Source: a virus
Reading direction: 5' to 3' (one strand)
Virus record (IMG/VR): IMGVR_UViG_3300037502_003932
Span: 1 to 20,162 of that record
DNA: 20,162 nucleotides
Shown: piece by piece, positions 726 through 20,162 of the stretch
Position numbering within the stretch: position 1 is the first letter of the stretch
Layout of the letters: the number at the start of each line of letters is the position of its first letter
Translations under genes and position numbers: made by a program
Notes under the pieces: generated by a model
What the model saw: only the letters and a program-made list of their open reading frames with translations
Database searches by the model: none
Told to the model about the DNA's origin: nothing

Positions 726-2411
726 TTATAAAATTGAACTAAATCTATTTAAACATAATTCAAAATCATCATTATTTAATAATGAATTTTCAGGATTAAC
801 CAACATTATTATTTTCTTAATTTCATATGAATCATACAAGTTTTGATCAAATCCAACTAACGATGTAATTATTTGCCCATTTTCAGGTAAGTTATCAAAT
901 ATCAAATTAAATATTTTTCTTTCATTATCCTCATCAAAATCGGCATTATTAGGATTGTCAAATACTAAAGGGTATATTAAACTTTCCGAATTGAATTCGT
1001 ACTTGGTCTTCAACAATGAACATAACCAAGCAACCTGGGTAATGTTAACTCTCGTCCCATCAACTTTGATCTTTGTTTCAACACTATCTATTGATGATAA
1101 ATCAAGCCCACCAAGCGAATATTTTTGATAAACATCATAGAAATTAGTCAAATATGTTTTGTTAACTTCCTTTTTTCTCCCATCAAGCGATCTGAGTAGA
1201 TTTGTAATCTTTTTTCTGTTTTCGATAAATGTATTTTTGGATACTTCATTGTTTGTTATTTCTTCAAATATATTTGCCTTAATCTTTTTCATTCCATAAG
1301 ATTTTATTGTATCTCCCAAACCCTTATTACCCTCAAAAACTCTTGCTTCAATTTTTTTCAGTTCTGCAAGATTGTCTTCATACTTACTGTTAGTTAAAGT
1401 GATTTCTCTACTAAGTTTACCTAATTCTCTTTCAGCATCAAGTAATTGAAATTTTGCACCATCAACATCAACAGCTTTATGAATATATGCATGACTATCA
1501 TCTCTTAGCTCTGAATTACAGATAGGACATGTGTGTTCCTTAATTGATTTATCTAATACCTTCTCATCAAAACTGATCATTTTTCGTAATTCATTAATGG
1601 CATACTCAATCTCTATCTTAGAATCATTCGTCTTTAGTAATTTTTCTTTTAACTTGTTTGCTTCACCAATAAGTTTAGTATATTCATCTTGGTGTTTTTG
1701 AAGTTCTTTTTTTAAAACTTCAATCTCAGAGTAATTTGAATTCAAATCTTTATTCTTATCTATTTGTGCTAGCATTTCATTGAACATTAGGTTCTTCTTA
1801 TTTATTTCACCGATTTTTCTATTTAATTCATCTGATTCAATTTTCAACTCATTAAATTGCTTGTTGTTAACACCCAAATGTGAGTATAATAAATCAGAAT
1901 AAAAGGCAGAAAATGCATTCAAACCATTAAATGTGCTAAATTCCGACACACGGATTTCTTTTTGATCAATATAATTTAATAGATAATTAAATGCAGGATG
2001 TGCAATAGAATATTCGTTATTCTTATTCTTAAGGTAAATTTCTTGGTTAAATAGTTTGTTAAGTTCGATTGCTAGGTCTGCTCTATTTATAACCTTAAAT
2101 AATAAATTATTGTTTTCATCAAACAATTTAAATAGATTATCAAATCTTAACATTCTAAATCTGCTATTATTGATTGAAAAATCTAGTATGTATGTGTACT
2201 TGCCTTCTCTTTCCCATAGGCTTGTTGAAAACTTACCATCTGCTCCTAATGTATGATAAATACTTCTTAGTAAACTAGATTTACCAACATAATTACCGTT
2301 AATATTTTTGTTAGATGTTACAACATTAATTCCTGCAGTAAATTCTGCATACTTTGCTGTTTTACTATTAGGACTAATTATAGCAATACTATTTACAATC
2401 ATGTTTTTCAT
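726..2411 (-). CDS. SMC/Rad50-like ATPase with zinc hook, Lamassu LmuB / ABC-3C type
   Basis: This 561-residue protein has a split ABC-ATPase layout. The P-loop is at residues 39-46 (NGNYVGKS), where the usual first Gly is Asn. A long coiled coil runs over about 185-425, broken near its middle by a CPIC zinc-hook motif at 295-298. The Walker B region at about 479-487 (LIYPLVFDNP) has Asp485 followed by Asn where classical ABC ATPases have the catalytic Glu. DQP- or DNP-type motifs are known in ABC-3C/DUF3732-like defence ATPases. SMC-like partners of this kind are thought to sense DNA ends or phage DNA and license a nuclease. It starts 8 nt after the nuclease stop, so the two are one operon. 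It is most like LmuB or DUF2326-type ABC-3C ATPases; the exact subfamily needs a profile search. Confidence 0.8.
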   Translation of the reverse strand: MKNMIVNSIAIISPNSKTAKYAEFTAGINVVTSNKNINGNYVGKSSLLRSIYHTLGADGKFSTSLWEREGKYTYILDFSINNSRFRMLRFDNLFKLFDENNNLLFKVINRADLAIELNKLFNQEIYLKNKNNEYSIAHPAFNYLLNYIDQKEIRVSEFSTFNGLNAFSAFYSDLLYSHLGVNNKQFNELKIESDELNRKIGEINKKNLMFNEMLAQIDKNKDLNSNYSEIEVLKKELQKHQDEYTKLIGEANKLKEKLLKTNDSKIEIEYAINELRKMISFDEKVLDKSIKEHTCPICNSELRDDSHAYIHKAVDVDGAKFQLLDAERELGKLSREITLTNSKYEDNLAELKKIEARVFEGNKGLGDTIKSYGMKKIKANIFEEITNNEVSKNTFIENRKKITNLLRSLDGRKKEVNKTYLTNFYDVYQKYSLGGLDLSSIDSVETKIKVDGTRVNITQVAWLCSLLKTKYEFNSESLIYPLVFDNPNNADFDEDNERKIFNLIFDNLPENGQIITSLVGFDQNLYDSYEIKKIIMLVNPENSLLNNDDFELCLNRFSSIL

Positions 2412-2419
2412 CTAATTTA

Positions 2420-3451
2420 CTACTCGCTTTCCATTTTTGTTAATGTTAATAGTATTAAGCACTTTCTTTCTGACTTATCCTTAATAATATCCCATTCAAT
2501 GCAATTATAGACATAATCGATTATCTCAGATAACTTTAAATCCTGAATAGTACTTTCATTTTCATTGATACAATTACTAATATCTACAATTAGTGCTTCT
2601 ATCGTTTTTGATGTAATCCCATATTTAAAAATTCTAGGTAATGCGGTTTTTAAAAGCAATATTTCCCCATAATTATAATCACCATTCAGTGCCTCTATTT
2701 TAGATAAAGTTTTTTCTCTATATCTGTCAGCACCTAGTAAATTATTCAATATGTTATCAATCTCACTTCTTTTTATTCCTTTTTTATCGATGGTATCATT
2801 TAAATCAATAGTGTTCAACTCATAACTTGCTTTTCTGTCTACCAATCCCTTTATGTAATTATATATCAGTTTTGGTTCACTAAATTTAATACCTTTTGCA
2901 TTTTCTAAAAACTCAACAGTCTTACCTATTAATAATGTATCGGGATTATTAATGCAAAAATCTGATCTTATGAAGAATGAATCCTTTAAATCTGTGACTA
3001 GAATAGATTCTGCTTTAAGATGATCTTCAATTTTTTTCTTTTCATGATCTTCTAAATTTTCAAAAGGTATTATCTCAGAATTTTGAAGTATGGTATTTTT
3101 AATTGATAGTTTTGTATTAGAAACTACATTAATACTTTTGATTTGATCGTTTACCTTCAATGAAAAAAGCAAGGATAAATAAGAACGCCCATTCTTCTTT
3201 CTAATTAGATCAGAAATACTAAAAGGACTGCTGGTATCTTTTGTTTTTACTTGATAAAAATGTAATGTATCATTGAATCCAACTTCAATATCACAAACAT
3301 AGTCAAATATAACAAAAAAATCATCTGGGTTCTCCAAATAAAGATCATATATTTTACTAATTCCCCATAATATTTCTTGTCTAAATCTATTTTTAGTTCT
3401 AGAACCAGATAAATCTTTCGGTAAAATTGAATATGTAGTATCTAATGACAA
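2420..3451 (-). CDS. Cap4-type dsDNA nuclease (DUF4297), Lamassu LmuA-like effector
   Basis: 343 residues. The N-terminal 95 residues match the Cap4/DUF4297 PD-(D/E)xK nuclease fold: DLSGSRTKNRFRQEILWGI (14-32) with a candidate acidic residue at Glu26, CDIEVGF (53-59), then HFYQVKT (64-70) with the Q-x-K active-site strand. The remaining 250 residues are helical and unassigned, and probably form the docking or sensor part. In Lamassu-Cap4 and related systems such a nuclease is activated by the SMC-like partner, giving DNA degradation and abortive infection. The start is TTG at 3449-3451, chosen because AAAGGGGG lies 8 nt upstream and the next codons align with the family. The ATPase gene follows directly. 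No cyclic-nucleotide synthase is nearby, which argues against CBASS Cap4. No separate LmuC-like middle gene is seen. Confidence 0.8.
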   Translation of the reverse strand: MSLDTTYSILPKDLSGSRTKNRFRQEILWGISKIYDLYLENPDDFFVIFDYVCDIEVGFNDTLHFYQVKTKDTSSPFSISDLIRKKNGRSYLSLLFSLKVNDQIKSINVVSNTKLSIKNTILQNSEIIPFENLEDHEKKKIEDHLKAESILVTDLKDSFFIRSDFCINNPDTLLIGKTVEFLENAKGIKFSEPKLIYNYIKGLVDRKASYELNTIDLNDTIDKKGIKRSEIDNILNNLLGADRYREKTLSKIEALNGDYNYGEILLLKTALPRIFKYGITSKTIEALIVDISNCINENESTIQDLKLSEIIDYVYNCIEWDIIKDKSERKCLILLTLTKMESE

Positions 3452-3811: not shown

Positions 3812-4300
3812 TTAGTTGTTTCGCTTTAGCTTCTACTTGTTCCTAAGCAACATCAAGATCTACTCGTCCAATATGTCCATAAGATGCTAACGGTTTAAAC
3901 TTCACTTTGTCCAGGTTTAATTCTTTGATAATGCTTGATGGTGTAAAGTTAATGTTCTCTTTAATTAACTTTAATATCACATCATCAGAAGTAACCCCTG
4001 TTCCAAAGGTATCAACTGATACACTCACTGGGTTTGCTACTCCGATGGAATAGGACACACTAACTTCGCACCTGTCCGCTAAATTTGCCGCTACAAGGGC
4101 TTTTGCTACAAATCTGGCATAGTTAGCCGCACTGCTGTCTACCTTGCTCACATCCTTGCCAGAGAATGCGACACCGCCATGTTTTGCATAACCACCATAA
4201 GTATCAACGATAATCTTTCTACCTGTTAATCCAGAATCTCCATATGGTCCACCAACGACAAAAGAAACTGTTGGATTGATTAAAACTTTGAACTGATACC
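3795..4300 (-). pseudogene. metK: metK 3' fragment (S-adenosylmethionine synthetase)
   Basis: The minus strand encodes the C-terminal third of MetK, starting near INPT and running through [25 protein letters not shown] and SVDTFGTG to YGHIGR. The usual final AWE has TGG replaced by TAG (3843-3845); beyond it the frame continues EQVEAKAKQLSESYE to a TAA at 3795-3797, as in a normal MetK tail. The 5' two-thirds, including the ATP and methionine site residues, are absent. Positions that are normally invariant are changed (HGGG to HGGV, NPTG to NPTV). The apparent start upstream (near 4346) is non-homologous and lies antisense to a recombinase relic. The fragment cannot be functional. It may mark an integration or recombination point within metK, whose intact copy should be elsewhere. 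Confidence 0.85.
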
Positions 4301-4369
4301 AAAAACCCGTACTTTGATACAATATAAGTGTATGCAGGAGGATCACACGAAAGATAAAAAGAAAACATT

Positions 4370-5575: not shown

Positions 5576-6406
5576 TTAATTACCAGAACTATAAATCATT
5601 GATTGAATGTAATCTATAACCATTGCACTAGAAACTGAAAATCCTTCAGGATTATTTTCATCATGTGTACCCGCATAATTTATTCCAACTACTTTTAGAT
5701 CAAAGTTAAGGAGCATTCCGCCACTAGAACCACTGTTTGTCTCTGCCGAGTGTATTATCGACCAGAATTCATTCGTTTTTACTTCGCCATATCTATCAGT
5801 TATCTTAGTTTTGTTGTACTTAATCACACTACCTATTGAAACAACGTTTCTCTCTCCAAGTGGATTTCCAATTGCCATGATGTTATTACCTACTTCTATT
5901 TCGCCATCTACAATCTCTAAAACAGTTAACACAGATTCACTCTTACTAAAAACGATAATGGCTAAATCTAGCTCATAATTCATAGTACCTTCATAAATAA
6001 ATGCACTGAATTTATTATCAAAATAATCCACTACTTCTATAATCTGATACTTGAAGTTTTTGTGCTTATCAACTACATGATAATTAGTTAATGCGTAGTA
6101 GTAATCTTCTGATTCGTGAAAAATGACTCCACTGCCGCTGTAGATATTTTTAGTTGAGAAAAACCATTCATTGTCAAACGAAACGTTGTTTATTAAGATA
6201 TTTCCCTGTTTAGATTTCAATAACTCATCTTCATCAATGCTCTCGAAATCTTCAATGATTGAGGGTACATAAGGTTCAAAGCTAATATCATTTATTTGGT
6301 ACTCATCCAATGTAGGTGCTTGAAAGTTGAAATCATAATTTGATTTACACCCTTGTAATATAAATAAATTTAAAATTAAGATGAAAAATAGATACAGTTT
6401 TTTCAA
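5576..6406 (-). CDS. Trypsin-like serine protease lipoprotein
   Basis: 276 residues. A lipoprotein signal (MKKLYLFFILILNLFILQGC, lipidated Cys20) places it on the outer face of the membrane. The rest is a chymotrypsin/DegP-type fold with an intact triad: His110 in TNYHVVD, Asp147 in YELDLAIIVF, and Ser228 in NSGSSGG. AIGNPLG (178-184) also matches the S1C/HtrA family. No PDZ domain follows, so it is a short S1-type protease rather than full HtrA. The start is TTG at 6404-6406, chosen for the strong GGAGGG upstream and the complete signal peptide. It follows the Abi_2/HEPN gene by 39 nt and may share its transcript. An external protease in a prophage cargo region could act on surface proteins, but its target is unknown. 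Confidence 0.85.
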   Translation of the reverse strand: MKKLYLFFILILNLFILQGCKSNYDFNFQAPTLDEYQINDISFEPYVPSIIEDFESIDEDELLKSKQGNILINNVSFDNEWFFSTKNIYSGSGVIFHESEDYYYALTNYHVVDKHKNFKYQIIEVVDYFDNKFSAFIYEGTMNYELDLAIIVFSKSESVLTVLEIVDGEIEVGNNIMAIGNPLGERNVVSIGSVIKYNKTKITDRYGEVKTNEFWSIIHSAETNSGSSGGMLLNFDLKVVGINYAGTHDENNPEGFSVSSAMVIDYIQSMIYSSGN

Positions 6407-6445
6407 AATATTGCCCTCCGAGTTTGCATTGAGTAAGCAAAATTA

Positions 6446-7150
6446 CTATAATACAATCTTAGCAACGGTTGGCAAAATCCACTCAGTCTGAAAAGGATTT
6501 GATGAACCGTCATTTTCTTCAAATGCTGAGCATGAATTAATCTCGTTAATAAAGCTCTGTTTAACGCTTGTTTCTAAGTGATTGGCAAGATTGGTAAGAT
6601 TCGCGTGTAGTGAACCACTAATGCTGCCATCTATATTACATTCTTTGAAATCTAGATAATTAAGCAGGAATCGATTATGACTAACTGCATTTCGTAGTTC
6701 AGCTAACGCCTTTAAATTCTTTGATTCAAATATTGTATCTGGGAAAATCGAATGAATATCTTCTTCAGAAAGATCCAACACCTGAGCTATGAGATCGGAG
6801 AATAATGTCTTGTCTAATGTTTTAAACAATACTTTTTCATTCTTAAGTTTGTAAGCTATTTTAGTTGTTAAATTCAGTTGATCTATTTGATCTGAGTATT
6901 TATTATCTATATAAGCTCTTATCTTTTCTTCCAATAGGCCAATATACTTATAGAGGACTTTTCGAATACGTTTATCGTAACGATATGTGGTTGCAATTTC
7001 ACAATATTTGATTTTTGAAGCTGTGAAACTACTAAAATACGAATAAATTGAATGATGAAGATTAACACCTTTCAAATCCAAATAGTGCTTAGCTTTATCT
7101 ATCTCTTCTTGTTTAATCTCAATAAGTTCAATAAACTCATTTGCTTTCAT
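6446..7150 (-). CDS. Abi_2 / HEPN-family protein (putative toxin or RNase)
   Basis: 234 mostly helical residues. KRIRKVLYKYIGLLEEKIRA (60-79) and ALAELRNAVSHNRFL (148-162) are the two conserved helices of Abi_2 (AbiD/AbiF-like) proteins, members of the HEPN superfamily. The R-x4-H RNase motif is Arg153/His158. In HepT toxins the motif continues H-x-Tyr, with that Tyr adenylylated by MntA; here it is H-N-Arg, so this modification site is absent. It starts 9 nt after the stop of the nucleotidyltransferase gene, in the same direction, implying one operon and coupled translation. Members of this family cause abortive infection by cleaving RNA. Whether the upstream gene controls it is inferred from the pairing only. 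Confidence 0.75.
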   Translation of the reverse strand: MKANEFIELIEIKQEEIDKAKHYLDLKGVNLHHSIYSYFSSFTASKIKYCEIATTYRYDKRIRKVLYKYIGLLEEKIRAYIDNKYSDQIDQLNLTTKIAYKLKNEKVLFKTLDKTLFSDLIAQVLDLSEEDIHSIFPDTIFESKNLKALAELRNAVSHNRFLLNYLDFKECNIDGSISGSLHANLTNLANHLETSVKQSFINEINSCSAFEENDGSSNPFQTEWILPTVAKIVL

Positions 7151-7159
7151 AGTTACACC

Positions 7160-7774
7160 TTATTGAAAATACTCATTCAGTGTTTCTAGGAAAACAGAGA
7201 ATGATGGAGTTTCTTCATTTCTAGTTAAATGCAGATTTTTATTGCGCAAGTATCTTTCTTTGAAGTCTTCCCAGTAACCCTCTTCTTTGATTCTTTTAAA
7301 TTTCACACTATAATTTTTTGTTTTTCGGACTTCATTCCATAAGTATCTGCCAGAGGTTTTATCGAAAATCAATTTGTAAAGATTACCGTTGTTTCCTTCT
7401 ATCATAATTGCAACATCAAAAGAAAACTCCAGTTTTCCATCAAGCACAAGTTTAGATGTTATTACAGACGTTGAATTGCTAGCAAATTTAAAACTAAGTT
7501 TAGGATTTACCTCATTAAATGCATTTATGAAAATGTTCTTAATCTTCTCAGGATAAGAACTCAGTTCCTGTTTGTCTTTTTTTAGGATAAAATTATAATC
7601 TAAGTCAAAAGGACCACTCTCACCATTTCGAGTAATTAATCTTTTTTCACCACTTCCAATAAGTCGATATTCAAAAGTAAAATATTCTTTGACACTCTTT
7701 TGTACATTTAGAATAATATCTTCACATGCTTTCGCAAGTGAGTCTCTTTCTTCTTTTGAAACATATATATACAT
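7160..7774 (-). CDS. Nucleotidyltransferase-fold protein paired with HEPN gene
   Basis: 204 residues. A Pol-beta-type nucleotidyltransferase signature is complete: Gly40-Ser41 in RLIGSGEKR, the metal-binding pair Asp57 and Asp59 in FDLDYNF, and a third carboxylate Asp120 in FSFDVAIM. The gap between GS and DxD (about 15 residues, with a TRNGESGP loop) is longer than in minimal MNT antitoxins. No OAS/CD-NTase helical domain is evident beyond the core. The start is backed by AAAGGAGATG. With the HEPN gene 9 nt downstream it forms an MNT-HEPN-like couple, where the transferase would be the antitoxin acting on the HEPN toxin. A nucleotide-signal synthase is an alternative. Confidence 0.7.
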   Translation of the reverse strand: MYIYVSKEERDSLAKACEDIILNVQKSVKEYFTFEYRLIGSGEKRLITRNGESGPFDLDYNFILKKDKQELSSYPEKIKNIFINAFNEVNPKLSFKFASNSTSVITSKLVLDGKLEFSFDVAIMIEGNNGNLYKLIFDKTSGRYLWNEVRKTKNYSVKFKRIKEEGYWEDFKERYLRNKNLHLTRNEETPSFSVFLETLNEYFQ

Positions 7775-7807: not shown

Positions 7808-8278
7808 TCAAATACTGTCCTTGATAAATTTAGGTAGTAATGTTTTTACTCCAAAGAACTCATAGATTTTGTGATGAGTAAATCCAATCGCATCAATCTC
7901 AATCGATTGATTTAAATAATCATAATCATCAACTTCATTATTCTTTCCAGAAGGACGAATATAATTCAATGTTTCATACTCCCATTTGTCTAGAGTATCT
8001 TTTGACTCCATCGATTTGGTTCTAATACAATAGCCTTGATAAGCATGTCTTGTCTCATGAAACGCAGTAACGATGACCTCAATCCATTGAGATTTAGCAA
8101 TCCATTCTTCATTGAATATAATTTCGTCAGATTCGAACAGATACATACCAGTAATCTCGTTATTAGATACTTCTGAGGGGTCAAAGAAGCTGATATGAGG
8201 TACAGGAATATTTAATATCTTCGCTATAATCTTTACACCATTTATTGCTACTTCGTGATTATTCATTATGCCATCCAA
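7808..8278 (-). CDS. HExxH zinc metallopeptidase-like protein
   Basis: 156 residues. HETRH at 74-78 is the zinc-binding helix, and Glu127 in QSIEIDAIGF is a plausible third ligand, as in small zincins related to ImmA/IrrE-type or SprT-like peptidases. No signal peptide or TM helix is visible, so it should be cytoplasmic. Either ATG at 8278 or the second ATG (residue 5) could be the start; both ribosome binding sites are weak. It lies 33 nt upstream of the nucleotidyltransferase/HEPN pair. ImmA-like peptidases often cleave a phage or ICE repressor, but no HTH repressor partner is beside it, so a regulatory or third-component role is open. Confidence 0.65.
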   Translation of the reverse strand: MDGIMNNHEVAINGVKIIAKILNIPVPHISFFDPSEVSNNEITGMYLFESDEIIFNEEWIAKSQWIEVIVTAFHETRHAYQGYCIRTKSMESKDTLDKWEYETLNYIRPSGKNNEVDDYDYLNQSIEIDAIGFTHHKIYEFFGVKTLLPKFIKDSI

Positions 8279-8324
8279 CTTTCACTTATTAAAATAATAT
8301 GCTATCTAGATTTTGGAACTCACA

Positions 8325-8546
8325 TTAATCACTGTATTTATTGATCAACGTAAGACAGGCACCTTCAATTGCTCCACCAATGATAGTTGGAATAATTAAA
8401 AAGAGAATAGTCCACACCAAAGCTGGTAACGGTACTGACAATGTTCTGAGTGGTTCATATAACTCTGTTAGAATTGGCAATAAGAAAATTGCTGTAAAAA
8501 TCTCGCCGATAATGAATGCTAGGAGTACAAATAATGCTTTATTCAC
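8325..8546 (-). CDS. Small two-TM membrane protein
   Basis: 73 residues with two hydrophobic segments (about 4-27 and 41-66) separated by a short polar loop around YEPLRT, and a short basic tail. The start is GTG at 8544-8546 with GGGGGAG seven nt upstream. It is the first gene behind the extended -10 promoter at 8585-8590, just after the phage operon terminator, so it opens the cargo cluster rather than closing the lysis module. A holin-like shape is possible, but position and promoter argue for a moron membrane protein. Family not recognised. Confidence 0.65.
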   Translation of the reverse strand: MNKALFVLLAFIIGEIFTAIFLLPILTELYEPLRTLSVPLPALVWTILFLIIPTIIGGAIEGACLTLINKYSD

Positions 8547-13872: not shown

Positions 13873-14700
13873 CTATACCCCCAGATACCCTTCAAGTAAT
13901 GTGATGCGACACGTGGTAGGACTTGCGACTCCTGGTTTGAATTCCACTTCGTACTCTCCTGGTTCAACAAAGAGAAAATTGTCGCAAGTAAAATCCTGTG
14001 AGCCATAGATGGATAGGATCTCACCGTTATCAATTTGACGAATGTATTGCTTATTCGGGATAGCCGAGATGTGTATTTCCCCGTTTAATTGCGTGTGATA
14101 AAGCCTAAGCATCGTAATCACAGTACTGTTTTTTCTGATAATAATCTCTGGGTCACTTACCGCACCCATGATTTCAATTAAAAGAGGTGCCTTTTGTACA
14201 CCCCTGTTGATGATTTGAATTTTGCCTTCAAAGAAAGCTGAATACCTATAAGGATAACTGTATGCATATCGTTTTCCAACTGTATCTTCATTAACATTAA
14301 CTGTATAGAGTTGATTCTTTAACCATAAGGATAACTTCTGAAAGATAATCTGGCTTTGTAATGTTCCAGCTACAAGCTCCTGTTTAGATATCGATTTGAT
14401 ATCTACAAAACAAAAAGCAGAATCATCCGCTTCATAGTACAGTTTGAGCTCTTTTTCTCCAAGTTTGAGATAGTTCATCAATTCGGTGTATCCTGGGTAT
14501 CCTTTGAGAAATGTTAGGGTTGCTTGAATCTCCGTTAGTCCTTGAGTCTGATCAACACGATCATAAAATGTTTCATACTTAAGGTAAGTCATTTCTTGTG
14601 AATAACCAAGTCCACTTATCGCATGGATTAAGCAACCGCTGCGGTAATCAAAATAAAACTTATTACCCGATGGAGTTTCAAGATAGATTTTTCGAATCAT
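13873..14700 (-). CDS. Distal tail protein (Dit)
   Basis: 275 residues of the phage_sipho_tail (Dit) family. The N-terminal belt domain includes GCLIHAISGLGYSQEMTYLK and the typical TQGLTEIQATLTFLKGYPGY; the C-terminal galectin-like half contains ILIEIMGAVSDPEIII-like strands (about 175-195) and ends GEYEVEFKPG. Dit makes the hexameric ring joining tail tube and tip. It overlaps the tape measure gene by 4 nt (ATGA type), so the two are coupled. Order TMP-Dit-Tal is canonical. Confidence 0.85.
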   Translation of the reverse strand: MIRKIYLETPSGNKFYFDYRSGCLIHAISGLGYSQEMTYLKYETFYDRVDQTQGLTEIQATLTFLKGYPGYTELMNYLKLGEKELKLYYEADDSAFCFVDIKSISKQELVAGTLQSQIIFQKLSLWLKNQLYTVNVNEDTVGKRYAYSYPYRYSAFFEGKIQIINRGVQKAPLLIEIMGAVSDPEIIIRKNSTVITMLRLYHTQLNGEIHISAIPNKQYIRQIDNGEILSIYGSQDFTCDNFLFVEPGEYEVEFKPGVASPTTCRITLLEGYLGV

Positions 14701-16709
14701 ATCACACTACCTCCAAGAGCTCTGTTGATGGAATCGATATTGAAGGTTGGTGATGTGGTATTGATGGTGATATTATTTGTGTTCGTGTTTGAACGGTTCA
14801 CGTTACTTGTCGAGCTTACACTTTGGGTTTGCTTTAAATTAAACTTATCACCAAACCAACCACCTATCTTTCCGAAGAATCCACCAACTTTATCTGCAGC
14901 ATTCCCGACAAAATCACCCACACCTTTTGCCATGTTTGATGCGAACTCACCAATGTTTCCCGTAATGCTTCCAACCATATCGCCAAAGTTACCTGCGATA
15001 TCACCCATCTTTGAACCTAAGTCGCCAATCCACTCGAATATTTGAGTTAAAAATTCGACAATCTTTTGAACCACTGCCATGACAGGTTCTAGTACTTTTT
15101 GAAGTACTTTGATAGCCGGAACTAAAATGGCTTGGAGTACTTTCCCAATAATCTCAATCAGTGGTGCAACCATCTCTAACAATTCTGCAATGAACTCGAT
15201 TTGAGTCATCAGTGGCACCAATAATACTTCAATAATGGGAACTAACATTTCAACAAGCATGATGATTAAATCTATCAAGACATCAAGAATCGGTGTTAGT
15301 GCAGTCATTAGACTATCCACGATCGTCATGATCGGTGGCAACAACAGCATTAAGGTTTCACCAAGTCTAGCTAGTAATGCTCGAAACTCTTCGCTTTGAA
15401 ATAATGCCATAGCAATAATCGCTATGAGTGCACCAATACCAAGTGTAGCAAAGTTAAGTCCAGCACCAGCAAATAAACCTGAAGTTCCAACTGCCTTTAA
15501 TGCGGTCGAGACTATATTTAAAATAGGTCCTACTTTTCCGATGATGGAAAGTACTGGACCTATCGCTGTTATCACCGCACCAAGTGCGAGGATGATTTGT
15601 TTTGTTCCTGTATCAAGATTACTCCATTTCTCAGTCCAGCTTTTAATCGTTGGAATGATTTCATCTCTAACCTTTTGAAGCATGGCTTGCATGATGGGTA
15701 ACACTTGAACAGAGATATCCATCGCAAGACTACCGAGTGCTTGTTTGGTTTGATCGACTGTATCGCTAAACTCCCCAGATATTGCAGCTTGTTCTTTGGT
15801 TATAATGCCAAGTTCTCTGACCTCTTGTCTTAGTGAGATAACTGCAGATTCTTCTTGCGATAACATAGGGAGAATTTCAGTACCAATCTTGTCACCAAAA
15901 AACTCATTCGCTATACCCACTCTTAGGGCTTCATCTTCTACGCCAGCTAATGCGTCACGTATCAAATTAAATGCTTGATCTGCATTAAGCCCTTTGAGAT
16001 CCTCAACAGTTAGTCCAATTTGTGCAAGACTCTCCGATACCTTATCACCATTACCAGTTGCGATATCGCCAAGAATCCCATTGACCTTAATAAAGGCCTT
16101 ATTTAGGCTTTCTGTCGAGCTTCCAGAGATCTTCGCAACGTAGTTCCACTCTTGTAAACTCTCGGCGCTAAGCCCAAGTTTAGCGGCTGTATCCGCAATT
16201 TCGTCTGCAGCATTCGCTGTCTTAACAGCAAGTGCACCAAGAGCAGATAAAGCTCCCAAAACTGGTACAGTAACTGATTTCGTTAGTGTTGAACCTAATT
16301 TACCTATCTTTTCGTAGTTGGCATTGGATAGTTCTGTGATTTTGGTTCTTGTGTTTTGAAGCTCCTTATTGAGTTTGGATACTTCCGCTTCAGTATAGGC
16401 AACATTTCGAGCGAGTTTATTGAATTCAGTTTCACTCATCTGTCCAAGTTTTACTGCTTGCTTTGCTTTCTCAAGCTCTTGATTTTGTGTTTCTAGCTTC
16501 TTTTTAGTCCTTTGAAGGATGTCATTGAGCTTAGATTGTTTTTGTTTCCAAAGTTCGACATTAGAGCTGTCGTATTTGAGGTTTGCATTAATGGCTTTGA
16601 GATCCTTTTGTTGCTCTTTAAGATCCGATTGAATTCCTTTGAGTTCATTCTCTAAATCTTTGCCATCAAGACTTAGCTTAATATTTAATCCTTTGACTGT
16701 TTCTGCCAT
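14697..16709 (-). CDS. Tape measure protein
   Basis: 670 residues. A coiled-coil N-terminus (1-135) has TMP-typical LKGIQSDLKEQQKDLKAINA. A Gly/Ala-rich hydrophobic stretch (about 145-165), helical repeats including AADEIADTAAKLGLSAESLQ, hydrophobic membrane-insertion-like segments (about 370-520) and a Gly- and Asn-rich C-terminus with NTNNITINTTSPTF follow. The length predicts a tail of about 100 nm from the usual 1.5 Å per residue, so it is fairly short for a siphovirus. GGAGGTGAG supports the start. The corA terminator sits just upstream, so transcription must read through it or begin at a promoter I did not find. Confidence 0.9.
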   Translation of the reverse strand: MAETVKGLNIKLSLDGKDLENELKGIQSDLKEQQKDLKAINANLKYDSSNVELWKQKQSKLNDILQRTKKKLETQNQELEKAKQAVKLGQMSETEFNKLARNVAYTEAEVSKLNKELQNTRTKITELSNANYEKIGKLGSTLTKSVTVPVLGALSALGALAVKTANAADEIADTAAKLGLSAESLQEWNYVAKISGSSTESLNKAFIKVNGILGDIATGNGDKVSESLAQIGLTVEDLKGLNADQAFNLIRDALAGVEDEALRVGIANEFFGDKIGTEILPMLSQEESAVISLRQEVRELGIITKEQAAISGEFSDTVDQTKQALGSLAMDISVQVLPIMQAMLQKVRDEIIPTIKSWTEKWSNLDTGTKQIILALGAVITAIGPVLSIIGKVGPILNIVSTALKAVGTSGLFAGAGLNFATLGIGALIAIIAMALFQSEEFRALLARLGETLMLLLPPIMTIVDSLMTALTPILDVLIDLIIMLVEMLVPIIEVLLVPLMTQIEFIAELLEMVAPLIEIIGKVLQAILVPAIKVLQKVLEPVMAVVQKIVEFLTQIFEWIGDLGSKMGDIAGNFGDMVGSITGNIGEFASNMAKGVGDFVGNAADKVGGFFGKIGGWFGDKFNLKQTQSVSSTSNVNRSNTNTNNITINTTSPTFNIDSINRALGGSVI

Positions 16710-16730
16710 CTTAACTCACCTCCAATGTAT

Positions 16731-16754
16731 AAAAAACACATCTCAAAAGATGTG
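16731..16754 (-). terminator. Rho-independent terminator of corA
   Basis: The minus strand has CACATCT and AGATGTG arms (7-bp perfect stem, 4-nt loop) followed by TTTTTT. It lies 19 nt past the corA stop and just before the tape measure ribosome binding site, so it splits the tail operon. Confidence 0.8.
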
Positions 16755-16772
16755 CTTAAGGAAAAATAAAAA

Positions 16773-17735
16773 CTATTTAATCTTATTCGTGTATCTGTAG
16801 AGGAAAAACGCACCAACAACAGATAATAGAAAACTTCCAATTACAGCAATATAGAAACCTGATTCGACATTAGCGAGCGGTATAAAATTAAAGTTCATAC
16901 CATAAAATGATGCTACTAAAGTAGGAATAGATAAACCAATTGTGATTACTGCTAAAGCCTTCATGACAATATTTAAGTTGTTAGAAATAATAGATGCGAA
17001 GGCGTCCATCATACCTGCTAAGATATCTCTATAAACAGAACACATCTCAATCGCTTGATTGATTTCGATTTCTGTGTCTTCCAGCAAATCCATGTCATCT
17101 TCATATTGCTTAAATTCAGAGCTTCGTGTTAATTTGTGTACAACAACTTTATTAGAATTAAGGGCCGTAGAAAAGTATACAAGGGATTTGTTGAGTTCCA
17201 TTAAATCAAATAGTTCTTGGTTTCTCATTGAATGATGCAGTTCACTTTCAACTTTCTTAGTTTGACTATCAATTTTCTTTAGGAAAGCGATGTATGTCAT
17301 TGCCAATCGATACAAGAATAATAATGTTAATCGTACCTTTTTATGTGGTTCAATCTTTTTATTCTTGCTAAATAAATCTTTGACCATATCTGTTTCTTTG
17401 ACACTGATTGTAATAAAATGATTCTCAGTGTGAATAATCGCAAAAGGTGTTGTTGTATATGCATTCTTACTGTTTTTAATTGGATCATATAGTGGAACAT
17501 CAAGAATAATTAACTTAGCGCTGTCTTCCATATCGATATGCGCATTTTCTTCTTCATCAAGTGCACTTGTTATAAATTCATTAGGTACACTAAGTTTTGA
17601 CTTCAACCACTCTACTTCTTCAGTTGTTGGTGCTATAACTTCAATCCAAGAACCATTAACTAATTCTGTTGTTTCCAAAATGTTGATGTTGAATTTTTCT
17701 AACTTTTTGTTTACTTCATAATATTGTCTAATCAT
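16773..17735 (-). CDS. corA: CorA-family magnesium (divalent cation) channel
   Basis: 320 residues, full CorA length. A cytoplasmic alpha/beta and helical domain fills residues 1-255. TM1 (about 259-278) ends in the signature YGMN (Gly279-Met280-Asn281), followed by the periplasmic-side loop, TM2 (about 294-313) and a basic tail (YRYTNKIK). It should form a pentameric Mg2+ channel. It is not a phage structural gene: it interrupts the tail module between chaperone and tape measure, and has its own promoter, leader and terminator. Its ATG lies inside the end of a 17-codon leader ORF (8-nt overlap), suggesting translational coupling. This fits a moron giving the host or phage a metal-uptake benefit, or a host gene captured by recombination. 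Confidence 0.9.
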   Translation of the reverse strand: MIRQYYEVNKKLEKFNINILETTELVNGSWIEVIAPTTEEVEWLKSKLSVPNEFITSALDEEENAHIDMEDSAKLIILDVPLYDPIKNSKNAYTTTPFAIIHTENHFITISVKETDMVKDLFSKNKKIEPHKKVRLTLLFLYRLAMTYIAFLKKIDSQTKKVESELHHSMRNQELFDLMELNKSLVYFSTALNSNKVVVHKLTRSSEFKQYEDDMDLLEDTEIEINQAIEMCSVYRDILAGMMDAFASIISNNLNIVMKALAVITIGLSIPTLVASFYGMNFNFIPLANVESGFYIAVIGSFLLSVVGAFFLYRYTNKIK

Positions 17736-17781
17736 TGCTCACACATCCTTTTTGAGCAGTTAGACATGATGTCTTTTTCAT
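17728..17781 (-). CDS. Leader ORF 2 upstream of corA (17 aa)
   Basis: ATG at 17779-17781 behind a strong AGGAGG (7 nt spacing); the product is MKKTSCLTAQKGCVSND. The stop overlaps the corA start by 8 nt, and corA itself has only a poor binding site (AAGGAT inside this ORF), so ribosomes leaving this ORF probably start corA. Two Cys residues are notable in such a short peptide; no TM helix. Likely a regulatory leader peptide; no family recognised. Confidence 0.55.
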   Translation of the reverse strand: MKKTSCLTAQKGCVSND

Positions 17782-17822
17782 CTTCTTTCCTCCTAATTAT
17801 TATTTTTCTTATTCCATTAGAA

Positions 17823-17910
17823 GGTAATTTGAACGTGACTAACTAACACTCTCGTTATCAACGTGCGAATGTATAGTTAAAAAAACTTGAGTCGTATGAT
17901 TCAAATTACC
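17823..17910 (-). promoter_or_regulatory. Structured RNA leader of corA
   Basis: GGTAATTTGAA and TTCAAATTACC, 11 bp perfect, can close an 88-nt stem-loop. Nested inside are TAACTA/TAGTTA and CGTT-GAT-AACG arms. The structure covers most of leader ORF 1 and ends about 25 nt before the ribosome binding site of leader ORF 2, so translation of ORF 1 would melt it. This could act as a Mg2+- or translation-sensing switch. It lacks the conserved M-box sequences. Confidence 0.5.
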
Positions 17911-17940
17911 CTTTTGTATTCGCTCGTGATCCGATTCCAT
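17839..17940 (-). CDS. Leader ORF 1 upstream of corA (33 aa)
   Basis: ATG at 17938-17940 preceded by a perfect AGGAGGTGA about 10 nt upstream. The product starts MESDHERIQKGNLNHTTQVF and ends LTIHSHVDNESVS, with five His and many acidic residues and no hydrophobic helix. The ORF overlaps the 5' arm and loop of the leader hairpin. Because a good binding site precedes a short ORF in a structured leader, I read it as a regulatory upstream ORF; it could also be a short peptide product in its own right. Confidence 0.5.
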   Translation of the reverse strand: MESDHERIQKGNLNHTTQVFLTIHSHVDNESVS

Positions 17941-17969
17941 TAGTTATTCACCTCCTAAACATCGTTGTT

Positions 17970-17978
17970 ATTATATCA
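17970..17978 (-). promoter_or_regulatory. Extended -10 promoter of the corA leader
   Basis: The minus strand reads TGATATAAT, a perfect extended -10, with a T-rich weak -35. It lies 27 nt after the end of the chaperone extension and about 14 nt before the ribosome binding site of leader ORF 1. Confidence 0.6.
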
Positions 17979-18004
17979 CTAAAATATCATAATAAAAACC
18001 CCAA

Positions 18005-18229
18005 TTATATTAAAAAAGCATCAATATCTGATTGTGAAGCACGTCTACCAGAGTCTTTTCCAGATATGACATTCATTTCCAGTTGAACCAACTCAAAGTA
18101 AGTTGATAAATCAAAATACTTCGAATCCTCAATTGAGAGTCCTAGATGAGCCAAGTTAAAGATAATGTTTGAAGTTGCACCAAACTCTAGCTCATCATTT
18201 TGACTGTGGGGATGGTTTGGTGCCTTTTT
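18005..18229 (-). CDS. Tail chaperone frameshift extension (GT-type)
   Basis: This frame has no good start of its own and overlaps the end of the chaperone gene. It reads KKAPNHPHSQNDELEFG, then SNIIFNLAHLGLSIEDSKYF, and ends SQSDIDAFLI, in the style of T extensions of lambda-type gpG/gpGT chaperones that bind the tape measure protein. It is in the +1 (equivalently -2) frame relative to the chaperone. The likely slip site is CAA AAA GGC (18222-18230): a Lys tRNA on AAA can slide back 2 nt within the five-A run, or forward 1 nt to AAG. The product would be a fusion of about 180 residues made at low frequency. Confidence 0.7.
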   Translation of the reverse strand, partial: KKAPNHPHSQNDELEFGATSNIIFNLAHLGLSIEDSKYFDLSTYFELVQLEMNVISGKDSGRRASQSDIDAFLI

Positions 18230-18545
18230 GGAGAGTGCCGAGCATTTCACCGATAGTTTGCGATAGAATGCCTAATTCTTCGGTATCGCTCAAAATGCCA
18301 AAATCAAGTGCCATCAAGAAATCATTGTAAGAAGTCTTGCTGAATGGTCGATGAAGCACATAAATAATTCGGAAGATCGTATCGATTACGAGCGAGAAAT
18401 CTTCTTCTTTGATATTCTTTCCCTTTTCTAGTTTTTTGATATCACTGAAAAGTTCAGAACCGAATACATTACGATAATCGATGATTGTAAAAAGTGACGA
18501 ATGGAGTTTATACTCCTTGTCACCAAGTTTGATAACTTTTTCCAT
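18195..18545 (-). CDS. Tail assembly chaperone (gpG-like)
   Basis: 116 residues. MEKVIKLGDKEYKLHSSLFT is a beta-hairpin start typical of Firmicute tail chaperones, followed by a helical body (IIDYRNVFGSELFSDIKKLE; DFLMALDFGIL). It sits between the major tail protein and the tape measure gene, as expected, and has an overlapping second frame. GGAGGATTG lies just upstream of the ATG. It keeps the tape measure protein soluble during tail assembly and is not in the finished particle. It stops with TGA at 18195-18197. Confidence 0.8.
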   Translation of the reverse strand: MEKVIKLGDKEYKLHSSLFTIIDYRNVFGSELFSDIKKLEKGKNIKEEDFSLVIDTIFRIIYVLHRPFSKTSYNDFLMALDFGILSDTEELGILSQTIGEMLGTLQKGTKPSPQSK

Positions 18546-18558
18546 AGTTCAATCCTCC

Positions 18559-19050
18559 TTAAATGAATGTTGGTAGTACTGTCGATGTTGATAAAAAGTT
18601 CGTGTAATTAGTGTCTCCAACACTTGCGATAACACGAAGGATTAGATTATTTCCTGATTCGATTGGGCGAGCGGTGATGTTAAGTGATATTGAGTTAGCT
18701 TCAATGGAGTCGGTTTTCGATTTGCTAGCATCCCCTGAAGGTGTAGCTGTACATAGGTAATACCAAATACGACGTGCTTTAGCATCACCTTGAATTTCAT
18801 AACCCAATGCGAAGGTCTTGGTTTCATTGTTGACCACTTCGACAAAGTTGCCATTGGTGTCCGTCTTGAATCCAAAGATATCCTTTTTAAATTCATCATC
18901 AATCTCAGTAAATTTGAGGGTGACTGTTGAACCTGAATTGGAGACTAGGGTTGCGATAACTTTATCATCTGCATAGACCTGCGAACTACCACCGATGATT
19001 TCGGTAGTGATTTCTTGAGCACCAACCAGACGCTTTGGTGTGCACTGCTA
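18559..19050 (-). pseudogene. Major tail protein, 5' end removed by IS insertion
   Basis: The frame is open from the IS edge (CTPKRLVGAQEITTEIIGG) through YADDKVIATLVSNSG and KKDIFGFKTDTNG to FALGYEIQGDAKARRIWYYL and the stop at 18559. This is the C-terminal 80% or so of a phi13/TP901-1-type major tail protein, the subunit of the tail tube. The missing start would encode about 30-45 residues. An internal GTG at 18837 could give 92 residues, but not a working tube protein. The prophage should therefore be unable to form tails unless the element excises precisely. Confidence 0.8.
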
Positions 19051-19086
19051 TGATTTTTTAGGACACATAGGTACCACCCTAGACAT

Positions 19087-19128
19087 AAAAATAGCGACAT
19101 GCAACTTTCCTTTGTTGCTTCTATTTTA
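19087..19128 (-). terminator. Hairpin terminator after orfB
   Basis: The minus strand has AAAATAG...GCAAC and GTTGC...CTATTTTT arms, interrupted by unpaired bases, with a T-run at the end. It lies 15 nt after the orfB stop, inside the IS end. Confidence 0.55.
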
Positions 19129-19142
19129 TCATTTAATACTGT

Positions 19143-20011
19143 TTAAGTAAATCCGTTTATTGTTCGATACTCTACTGGTGTTAAGTAATCTAATCGATAA
19201 GCTACTCTGTGATGATTAAAATAATCTATGTACAACTCAATAGCGGTATTTATATCTTTGAAGTCATGCATTTTAATATAATGTTTTAGATCCCCTTTTA
19301 TCCATCCAATTAGTGATTCAATTACTGGATTATCAGTAGGTGTTCCTGCTCTTGACATAGAACGAGATATTGGATAATCCTTTTGAGCTTTTCAAACTTT
19401 TTAGAGGAGTACACAATCCCTTGATCACTATGTAAGATGGTATGGTCATCACCATATCCTCTTTCTTCTTTTATTCGAAGGAAATCATTTAAACTTCTTA
19501 AGTGATTCATAACTCCATTTCCGTGATTATAGTTCGCACAATCATATCCAACTATTTCGTTATTAAATACATCTACATGTAGGTTTAAATCATATTTCTT
19601 TCCATCGTGTTTAAGCATTGTTGTATCACTACACACTTTCTCAAATGGTCTTGTAGTATTCCAATCTCCATTGATTAAGTTAGGAAACTTATCACTAACT
19701 CCTTTAGGTCTTCTAAACGCTCTTCTACGGGCTCTAGAGTAGATTCCCATTTCTCTGAAACATTGATACATTAAGTAATAAGATACAAGCCATCCTGTCT
19801 CGTTAATGATATCTTTTCTTAATGCTCTATATCCTTTTTCAGGATGGATTAAATGATAATTCTTTATAAGCATTTTAAGCGTTTCTTTTGTTTCTTGTCT
19901 CTGTGTTTTATTCTCTCTTCTTCTTAGCCATCTATAATATCCAGATCTGCTGATTTCCATGTATTCACATAAATCATTGATGTAGTATTTTACTCTAAAT
20001 TTATGAACCAA
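19143..20011 (-). pseudogene. IS3-family transposase orfB, frameshifted
   Basis: An N-terminal helical region (YINDLCEYMEISRSGYYRWL) precedes the DDE integrase core (rve): first Asp near 129 in VCSDTTML, second Asp196 in ILHSDQGIVYSS. The frame then drifts at about 19370 (codons 213-215), and the rest, SMSRAGTPTDNPVIESLIGW with the catalytic Glu in PVIES, continues in the neighbouring frame to TAA at 19143. A single missing base explains this; together the two parts give a full-length OrfB. The usual start may be TTG at 20011 or further upstream, because the frame stays open to 20071. Confidence 0.85.
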
Positions 20012-20071
20012 TGTATATTCATAATTCAGGATTTCTTTTTTTTCTGACGGTTGGTGAATAGTGTGTATAAA

Positions 20072-20162
20072 CTACCTTATATTCTCCAATATGTCAGTTA
20101 TTCCTAAGTCTTTCATGTAATCTATGTACTTAACTCGTTTATCAGCTTTATTGACCTTTTTG
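20072..20162 (-). CDS. IS3-family transposase orfA, C-terminal part
   Basis: The last 29 codons (KKVNKADKRVKYIDYMKDLG, then ITDILENIR) end in TAG at 20072-20074. The HTH domain lies beyond the right edge. OrfA's stop is in the same frame as orfB, which is unusual, as IS3 members normally place orfB in the -1 frame. An eight-A run (20036-20043) lies between the stop and the orfB core. Confidence 0.6.
   Translation of the reverse strand, partial: KKVNKADKRVKYIDYMKDLGITDILENIR

Follow-up and report, generated by a model that had tools for sequence, protein, structure and literature searches.

Why does a gene for a magnesium channel lie inside the tail operon of a phage, and how would it be expressed there? 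The stretch of DNA that raises this question, hereafter the window, comprises the 20,162 bases of an IMG/VR record. Its minus strand carries, in order, the remnant of an IS3 element, a truncated gene for the major tail protein, a tail assembly chaperone, its partner ORF, corA, the tape measure gene, Dit and further tail genes. The initial annotation described the corA segment as a self-contained moron and placed it at 16731-17980, which is correct to within a few bases. Our analysis suggests that the cassette is probably a moron in a cargo slot, and that corA would serve lysogenic conversion, with its leader RNA acting as the gate, possibly in response to Mg2+.

The corA gene and its neighbors

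The corA gene (16773..17735, minus strand) encodes a CorA-type divalent cation channel of 320 aa and lies between the tail-chaperone ORFs upstream and the tape measure gene downstream, as had been proposed. The protein matches Pfam PF01544 with E=1.5e-54 (185.7 bits) over model positions 5-289 of 292, that is, over the full domain, and its GMN motif is found as YGMNF at residues 278-282. The best solved relatives in the PDB are the MjCorA-type CorA chains 4cy4 and 4ev6, with an alignment that extends through the transmembrane region. The full-length domain, the GMN motif and the C-terminal transmembrane pair by which the family is recognized are thus all present. Against the NCBIfam equivalog TIGR00383 the protein scores 129.5 bits, below the cutoff of 200.75. 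Judged from these matches, it is a member of the CorA superfamily; we give it no curated transporter name and do not call the equivalog. Among the phage corA copies, dN/dS is 0.02-0.07 at a dS of 0.8-3, where synonymous sites approach saturation; therefore, the CorA protein is maintained by selection. We also considered a CRISPR SAM-AMP CorA effector, which was ruled out by the lack of a CRISPR context and of any PADLOC match to CorA.

Both flanks are ordinary tail genes. The chaperone (18195..18545, minus strand; phrog_709, E=5.8e-12) forms the left flank and has homologues at the compared junctions. On this side the slot is bounded by the stop codon of the overlapping 81-aa partner ORF of the chaperone (18005..18250, minus strand). 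The right border is the Shine-Dalgarno sequence (SD) of the tape measure gene (14697..16709, minus strand; phrog_58, E=3.5e-37). The frame of the chaperone/partner overlap (18195-18250, minus strand) requires a +1 (or -2) shift near CTCCAAAAAGG and is kept in close relatives, whereas the chaperone frameshift of HK97 is annotated as -1. Further upstream, at 19040-20162 (minus strand), an IS3-family remnant interrupts the major tail gene, which lacks the first 28 of 188 residues that its relatives have. The phage copy in the window is, from this interruption, probably defective or a variant.

That the window is a single IMG/VR fragment, into whose major tail gene the IS3 remnant has also cut, could raise the suspicion of misassembly or of contamination with a chromosomal corA. 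We regard the chance of this as vanishingly small, and it is already refuted by the repetition of the leader-corA gene order on the independent IMG/VR contigs L002, L003, L005 and L006 and on a bacterial genome contig, L052. The nearest chromosomal CorA, from an uncultured Bacillales MAG (L053), is 76% identical and lacks the leader, and chromosomal copies in the host order do not exceed 51% identity. When the CorA scan of the IMG/VR viral contigs was repeated with the alignment as query, it gave no further relatives.

The bacterial contig also informs on lifestyle. We compared 160 genomes from the host order, the order of G001, whose prophage L052 carries the same leader-corA cassette, and 22 of them contain relatives of the tape measure; therefore, these phages do lysogenize. 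Since the host of L052 also encodes another, distinct CorA and has two MgtE genes, the phage corA is an addition and not the sole Mg2+ importer, which also settles the question of whether it could be the only corA of the chromosome. What benefit an extra CorA would bring to a cell so equipped is not obvious.

Several other genes of the window deserve mention in their own right. At its low-coordinate end (726-3451, minus strand) is a Lamassu defence pair, LmuB (PADLOC, E=1e-168) and an LmuA with a Cap4 nuclease domain (E=8e-71). The genes clustered at 5576-7774 (minus strand) encode a trypsin-like lipoprotein, an Abi_2 protein and a nucleotidyltransferase with weak similarity to CBASS cyclases. 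By eye, ORFs resembling the latter two also come after the tail genes of the L052 prophage (L087). Past those same tail genes, at 6586-8936 of L087 (G001 contig C28), a reverse-transcriptase-like ORF is followed by a radical-SAM-like one and more ORFs, again by eye. Within a GC-rich island of the window, positions 3843-4346 (minus strand) encode only the C-terminal domain of an S-adenosylmethionine synthetase (Pfam, E=2.7e-57), possibly a metK 3' end displaced by phage integration.

A cargo slot between chaperone and tape measure

With CorA and the tape measure as queries, scans of IMG/VR gathered about 50 loci, and together with the host genomes these gave 64 readable chaperone/tape-measure junctions, a count that takes in close relatives and so does not represent independent events. 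Twenty-seven of these junctions are empty, consisting of 12-21 nt that hold just the ribosome-binding site of the tape measure gene. The other 37 are loaded, and their cargo falls into 19 unrelated classes. The flanks remain near-identical despite the unrelated cargo (tape measure often above 90%, chaperone often 96-100% identity), and the junctions of tape-measure relatives in host-order genomes show the same pattern as those from IMG/VR. Since a moron is recognized by its presence in one phage and absence at the same site in close relatives, the 27 empty and 37 loaded junctions place this cargo in that category. Because corA is missing here in many related phages, the possibility that it is always present and co-transcribed fails. 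A Mg2+ channel at this site had been called unusual; with 37 of 64 junctions loaded, the site itself is a recurrent cargo site. In HK97 (AF069529), too, the gp15 moron (8203-8391) and an annotated putative terminator lie between the chaperone gp13/14 and the tape measure H. For this reason, the junction is, in terms of gene order and sequence, a classical moron site, here a multi-cargo slot in temperate tailed phages (siphoviruses) of Bacillota. It is the cargo, CorA, that is unusual, not the junction.

The cargo is diverse. In the window phage it is corA, and in L007 it is a DUF2975 membrane protein with corA. Other metal-related cassettes are a Cd/Zn-type P-type ATPase (CadA-type) with an ArsR regulator in L024 (5364-7902, opposite strand) and, in L115, an ABC metal-exporter-like set of an ABC ATPase, a UPF0014 permease and a CopZ-zinc-binding/BFD-like protein. 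GHKL-like ATPases occupy L022 (weak Pfam match) and, by similarity to L022, L124 and L125. A pPIWI-associated nuclease (PADLOC Aga_Nuclease) is found in L037, and elsewhere there are List-Bact-repeat lipoproteins, DUF1232, XRE and ParB-like proteins, as well as several families that match nothing known. Two recurrent families gave no Pfam or PADLOC match: one of 395 aa (L011, L012, L043 and L046) and one of 319-329 aa with a hydrophobic N-terminal stretch (L013, L018, L035, L050 and L108). Unrelated cassettes can share near-identical terminator ends, for example AAATCGAAGTGCTTTTTATTTGCAGT in L011, L012 and L125, and comparison of these ends suggests that cassette swapping may use the terminator and the tape-measure ribosome-binding site as right-hand homology.

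The cassettes also bring their own signals. Upstream of the corA leader is an extended -10 promoter element, TGATATAAT (17970..17978, minus strand), whose pattern TG[AG]TATAAT is kept in all corA loci with the leader. At the other end, an intrinsic terminator (16729..16756, minus strand), consisting of a stem-loop at 16735-16756 and a U-run, sits directly upstream of the tape-measure SD. A simple promoter/terminator scanner listed neither signal of corA; both were identified through sequence comparison. Over all junctions, a terminator hairpin occurs in 32 of 37 with cargo versus none of 27 empty ones and 5.8% of shuffles, and an extended -10 element in 26 of 37 with cargo versus 7.3% of shuffles. 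These comparisons indicate that the corA cassette has a promoter of its own, and the earlier picture of a CorA moron with promoter, leader and terminator is upheld at this level.

It had further been expected that the terminator would be polar on the tape measure and all tail genes after it. Strict polarity is unsupported given how many cargo junctions carry a terminator. From terminator to tape-measure start there are usually only about 25-30 nt, too little for a promoter. With a terminator in nearly all cassettes and no room for a promoter behind it, late transcription would have to pass by read-through or antitermination, and polarity, as far as these arrangements tell, is evidently tolerated.

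Because corA is co-directional with the late tail operon in which it lies, one could imagine that CorA serves the lytic cycle, supplying Mg2+ for DNA packaging or burst, and that upstream transcription drives corA together with the late genes. We consider this quite unlikely. The gene has its own promoter and terminator; most close relatives lack it and evidently make tails without it; and two slot occupants, L024 and L049, are on the opposite strand.

Layout and fold of the leader RNA

Between promoter and corA is a structured 5' leader RNA of about 230 nt (17736..~17967, minus strand; fold z=-4.1), which we aligned in seven sequences (alignment A3; the L081 copy ends at a contig end). It contains two short ORFs, both on the minus strand. 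ORF1 (17839..17940; 33 codons, MESDHERIQKGNLN...) is preceded by the SD GGAGG at 17951-17955, and ORF2 (17728..17781; 17 codons) overlaps the corA start codon (ATGATTAG). In the predicted fold, the ORF1 SD and start codon (17918-17955) pair with the end of ORF1 (17831-17870) to form a P1 domain (17831..17955, minus strand), and the ORF2 SD pairs with CCUUCUAAU in an anti-SD hairpin, CCUUCUAAU/AUUAGGAGG (17789..17824, minus strand). Computed ensembles leave both SDs largely hidden in all seven sequences, with the ORF1 SD about 20% and its AUG 7-9% unpaired. A competing or pseudoknot helix (17823..17910, minus strand) can form between GGUAAUUUGAA (17900-17910) and UUCAAAUUACC (17823-17833). When this helix is forced, the computed accessibility of the ORF2 SD, otherwise about 0, reaches 0.4-0.7, and the ensemble becomes less favorable by about 9-15 kcal/mol. 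Its six counted pairs are intact in 7/7 sequences, with one-sided G-U changes at two of them. Pairing is kept in 98.4% of the cells of A3 versus 29-42% in slid controls, and two-sided covariation is absent from the seven-sequence alignment. The leader structure is thus backed by energy and conservation, not proven.

The 33-codon ORF1 is present in 7/7 leaders with zero indels. Its nucleotide identity is 79-97%, while dS in corA is near saturation, and its few changes are more often non-synonymous than synonymous. Because ORF1 has changed so little, and mostly at non-synonymous sites, while corA synonymous sites are near-saturated, it is the RNA, more than the peptide, that is constrained; from these substitutions the ORF1 peptide is not clearly under selection itself. 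The scarcity of synonymous changes likewise rules out a coding-only cause of the leader conservation. Since L007 has corA without the leader, the leader is not obligatory.

Does this RNA belong to a known class? Rfam gave no match at the gathering score over 4227 families, including the known Mg2+ leaders (M-box, mgtA leader), and nothing credible at a permissive E-value; a match to FtrA (E=6.7, other strand) is due to chance. When IMG/VR and sets of 160 and 395 genomes were searched with patterns and covariance models, the leader was recovered only upstream of this phage corA, with filters in the large-genome covariance-model searches so strict that diverged copies could escape. IMG/VR holds no leader match outside the family of the window phage, and BLAST of the leader against the 395 class genomes gave just weak, short matches. 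Two candidate carriers were rejected: a full read of the L072 locus shows no leader, and the covariance-model match in G090 (E=0.003) lies within an unrelated ORF and is at chance level for 395 genomes.

These features can be read in two ways. The leader could be an undescribed phage-borne RNA regulator of a phage Mg2+ channel. It would sense Mg2+ or the state of the ribosome and would be the Gram-positive counterpart of the enteric corL/mgtL attenuators. Its two upstream ORFs (uORFs) with sequestered SDs, its competing helix and the lack of a homologue on the bacterial chromosomes searched are the parts of this idea, which we put forward tentatively. Alternatively, the RNA may be constrained for a reason other than Mg2+, such as shutting off corA on long late read-through transcripts or a response to a different ligand. 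RNA-level constraint with few synonymous changes, the default hiding of both SDs and the missing match to an Rfam Mg2+ family would all fit, but the leader stands directly upstream of a Mg2+ channel, and its layout of uORFs and SD sequestration parallels that of enteric corA. This second possibility, too, is one to which we give limited credence; it concerns regulation only and is compatible with the cassette being a moron.

Proposed role of the cassette and known systems

We propose the following scheme for the corA moron. The junction sequences show unrelated cassettes taking each other's place in the interval from the stop codon of the chaperone to the ribosome-binding site of the tape measure. 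A lysogen may transcribe corA from its own promoter. By default, the folded leader would hide the SDs of ORF1 and ORF2, the latter being presumably coupled in translation to corA. Whether CorA is produced would depend on a signal, for which Mg2+ or the behavior of ribosomes on ORF1 is the most plausible candidate. The phage CorA could then give the host an extra uptake channel for Mg2+ or other divalent cations, that is, lysogenic conversion. In the lytic cycle, late transcription would read through or antiterminate the cassette terminator, and the tail genes would still be expressed.

Another role for the protein has to be weighed against Mg2+ nutrition. HK97 gp15, in the same genomic slot, is a short superinfection-exclusion protein of an E. 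coli phage (PMC10883804), and other slot cargo includes the pPIWI-associated nuclease; the main function of CorA in the membrane could then be superinfection exclusion or defence against phages. We think this improbable, since CorA is a full canonical channel under strong purifying selection that PADLOC does not match, other cargos are ordinary metal transporters (the CadA-type ATPase with ArsR, the UPF0014/ABC set), and the leader resembles the regulation of Mg2+ transporters. We thus keep to lysogenic conversion by a moron. What is new here is how wide a range of cargo the slot takes, that this cargo includes metal transporters, and that the leader is constrained.

Compared with HK97, the shared features are the junction and a membrane protein as cargo (PMC10883804). 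The differences are that gp15 has no annotated structured leader, whereas the window phage has CorA with a leader, in a slot with 19 cargo classes across relatives. The HK97 gp15 junction hence doubles as a recurrent cargo slot in a Bacillota phage family, with at least 19 kinds of cassette. Phage hot spots for defence genes and morons are known from P2/P4-type phages (cited in PMC11364771) and from Tab of JBD26 (PMC10884400), and these, too, are fixed sites at which temperate phages can exchange accessory genes. The present slot differs in its position and in adding metal transporters and lipoproteins to defence; its cargo extends past immunity to a Mg2+ channel, a Cd/Zn-type ATPase with its regulator and an ABC metal-exporter-like set. 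CorA-family proteins are also encoded on other phage records (phrog_26011, Prevotella Lak megaphages and gut phage contigs), but they are at most 45% identical to the one in the window.

For the leader, the closest parallels are the enterobacterial corA/corL and mgtA/mgtL systems, where a structured leader likewise precedes a Mg2+ transporter gene and the SD of a uORF lies in a stem. The enteric corA leader has the uORF corL with its SD sequestered by stem A, and Rho mediates the control that uORF translation and Mg2+ exert on corA (PMC11552253). By fold prediction, ORF1 of the phage leader has the corL/mgtL arrangement of a leader uORF with its SD in a stem. Unlike enteric corA, the phage leader has two uORFs, the second overlapping the corA start, and matches no Rfam family; the likeness is one of predicted layout. 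A phage CorA behind a conserved RNA leader would make regulated metal uptake a candidate lysogenic-conversion trait, and the leader itself a compact candidate for a new cis-regulatory RNA.
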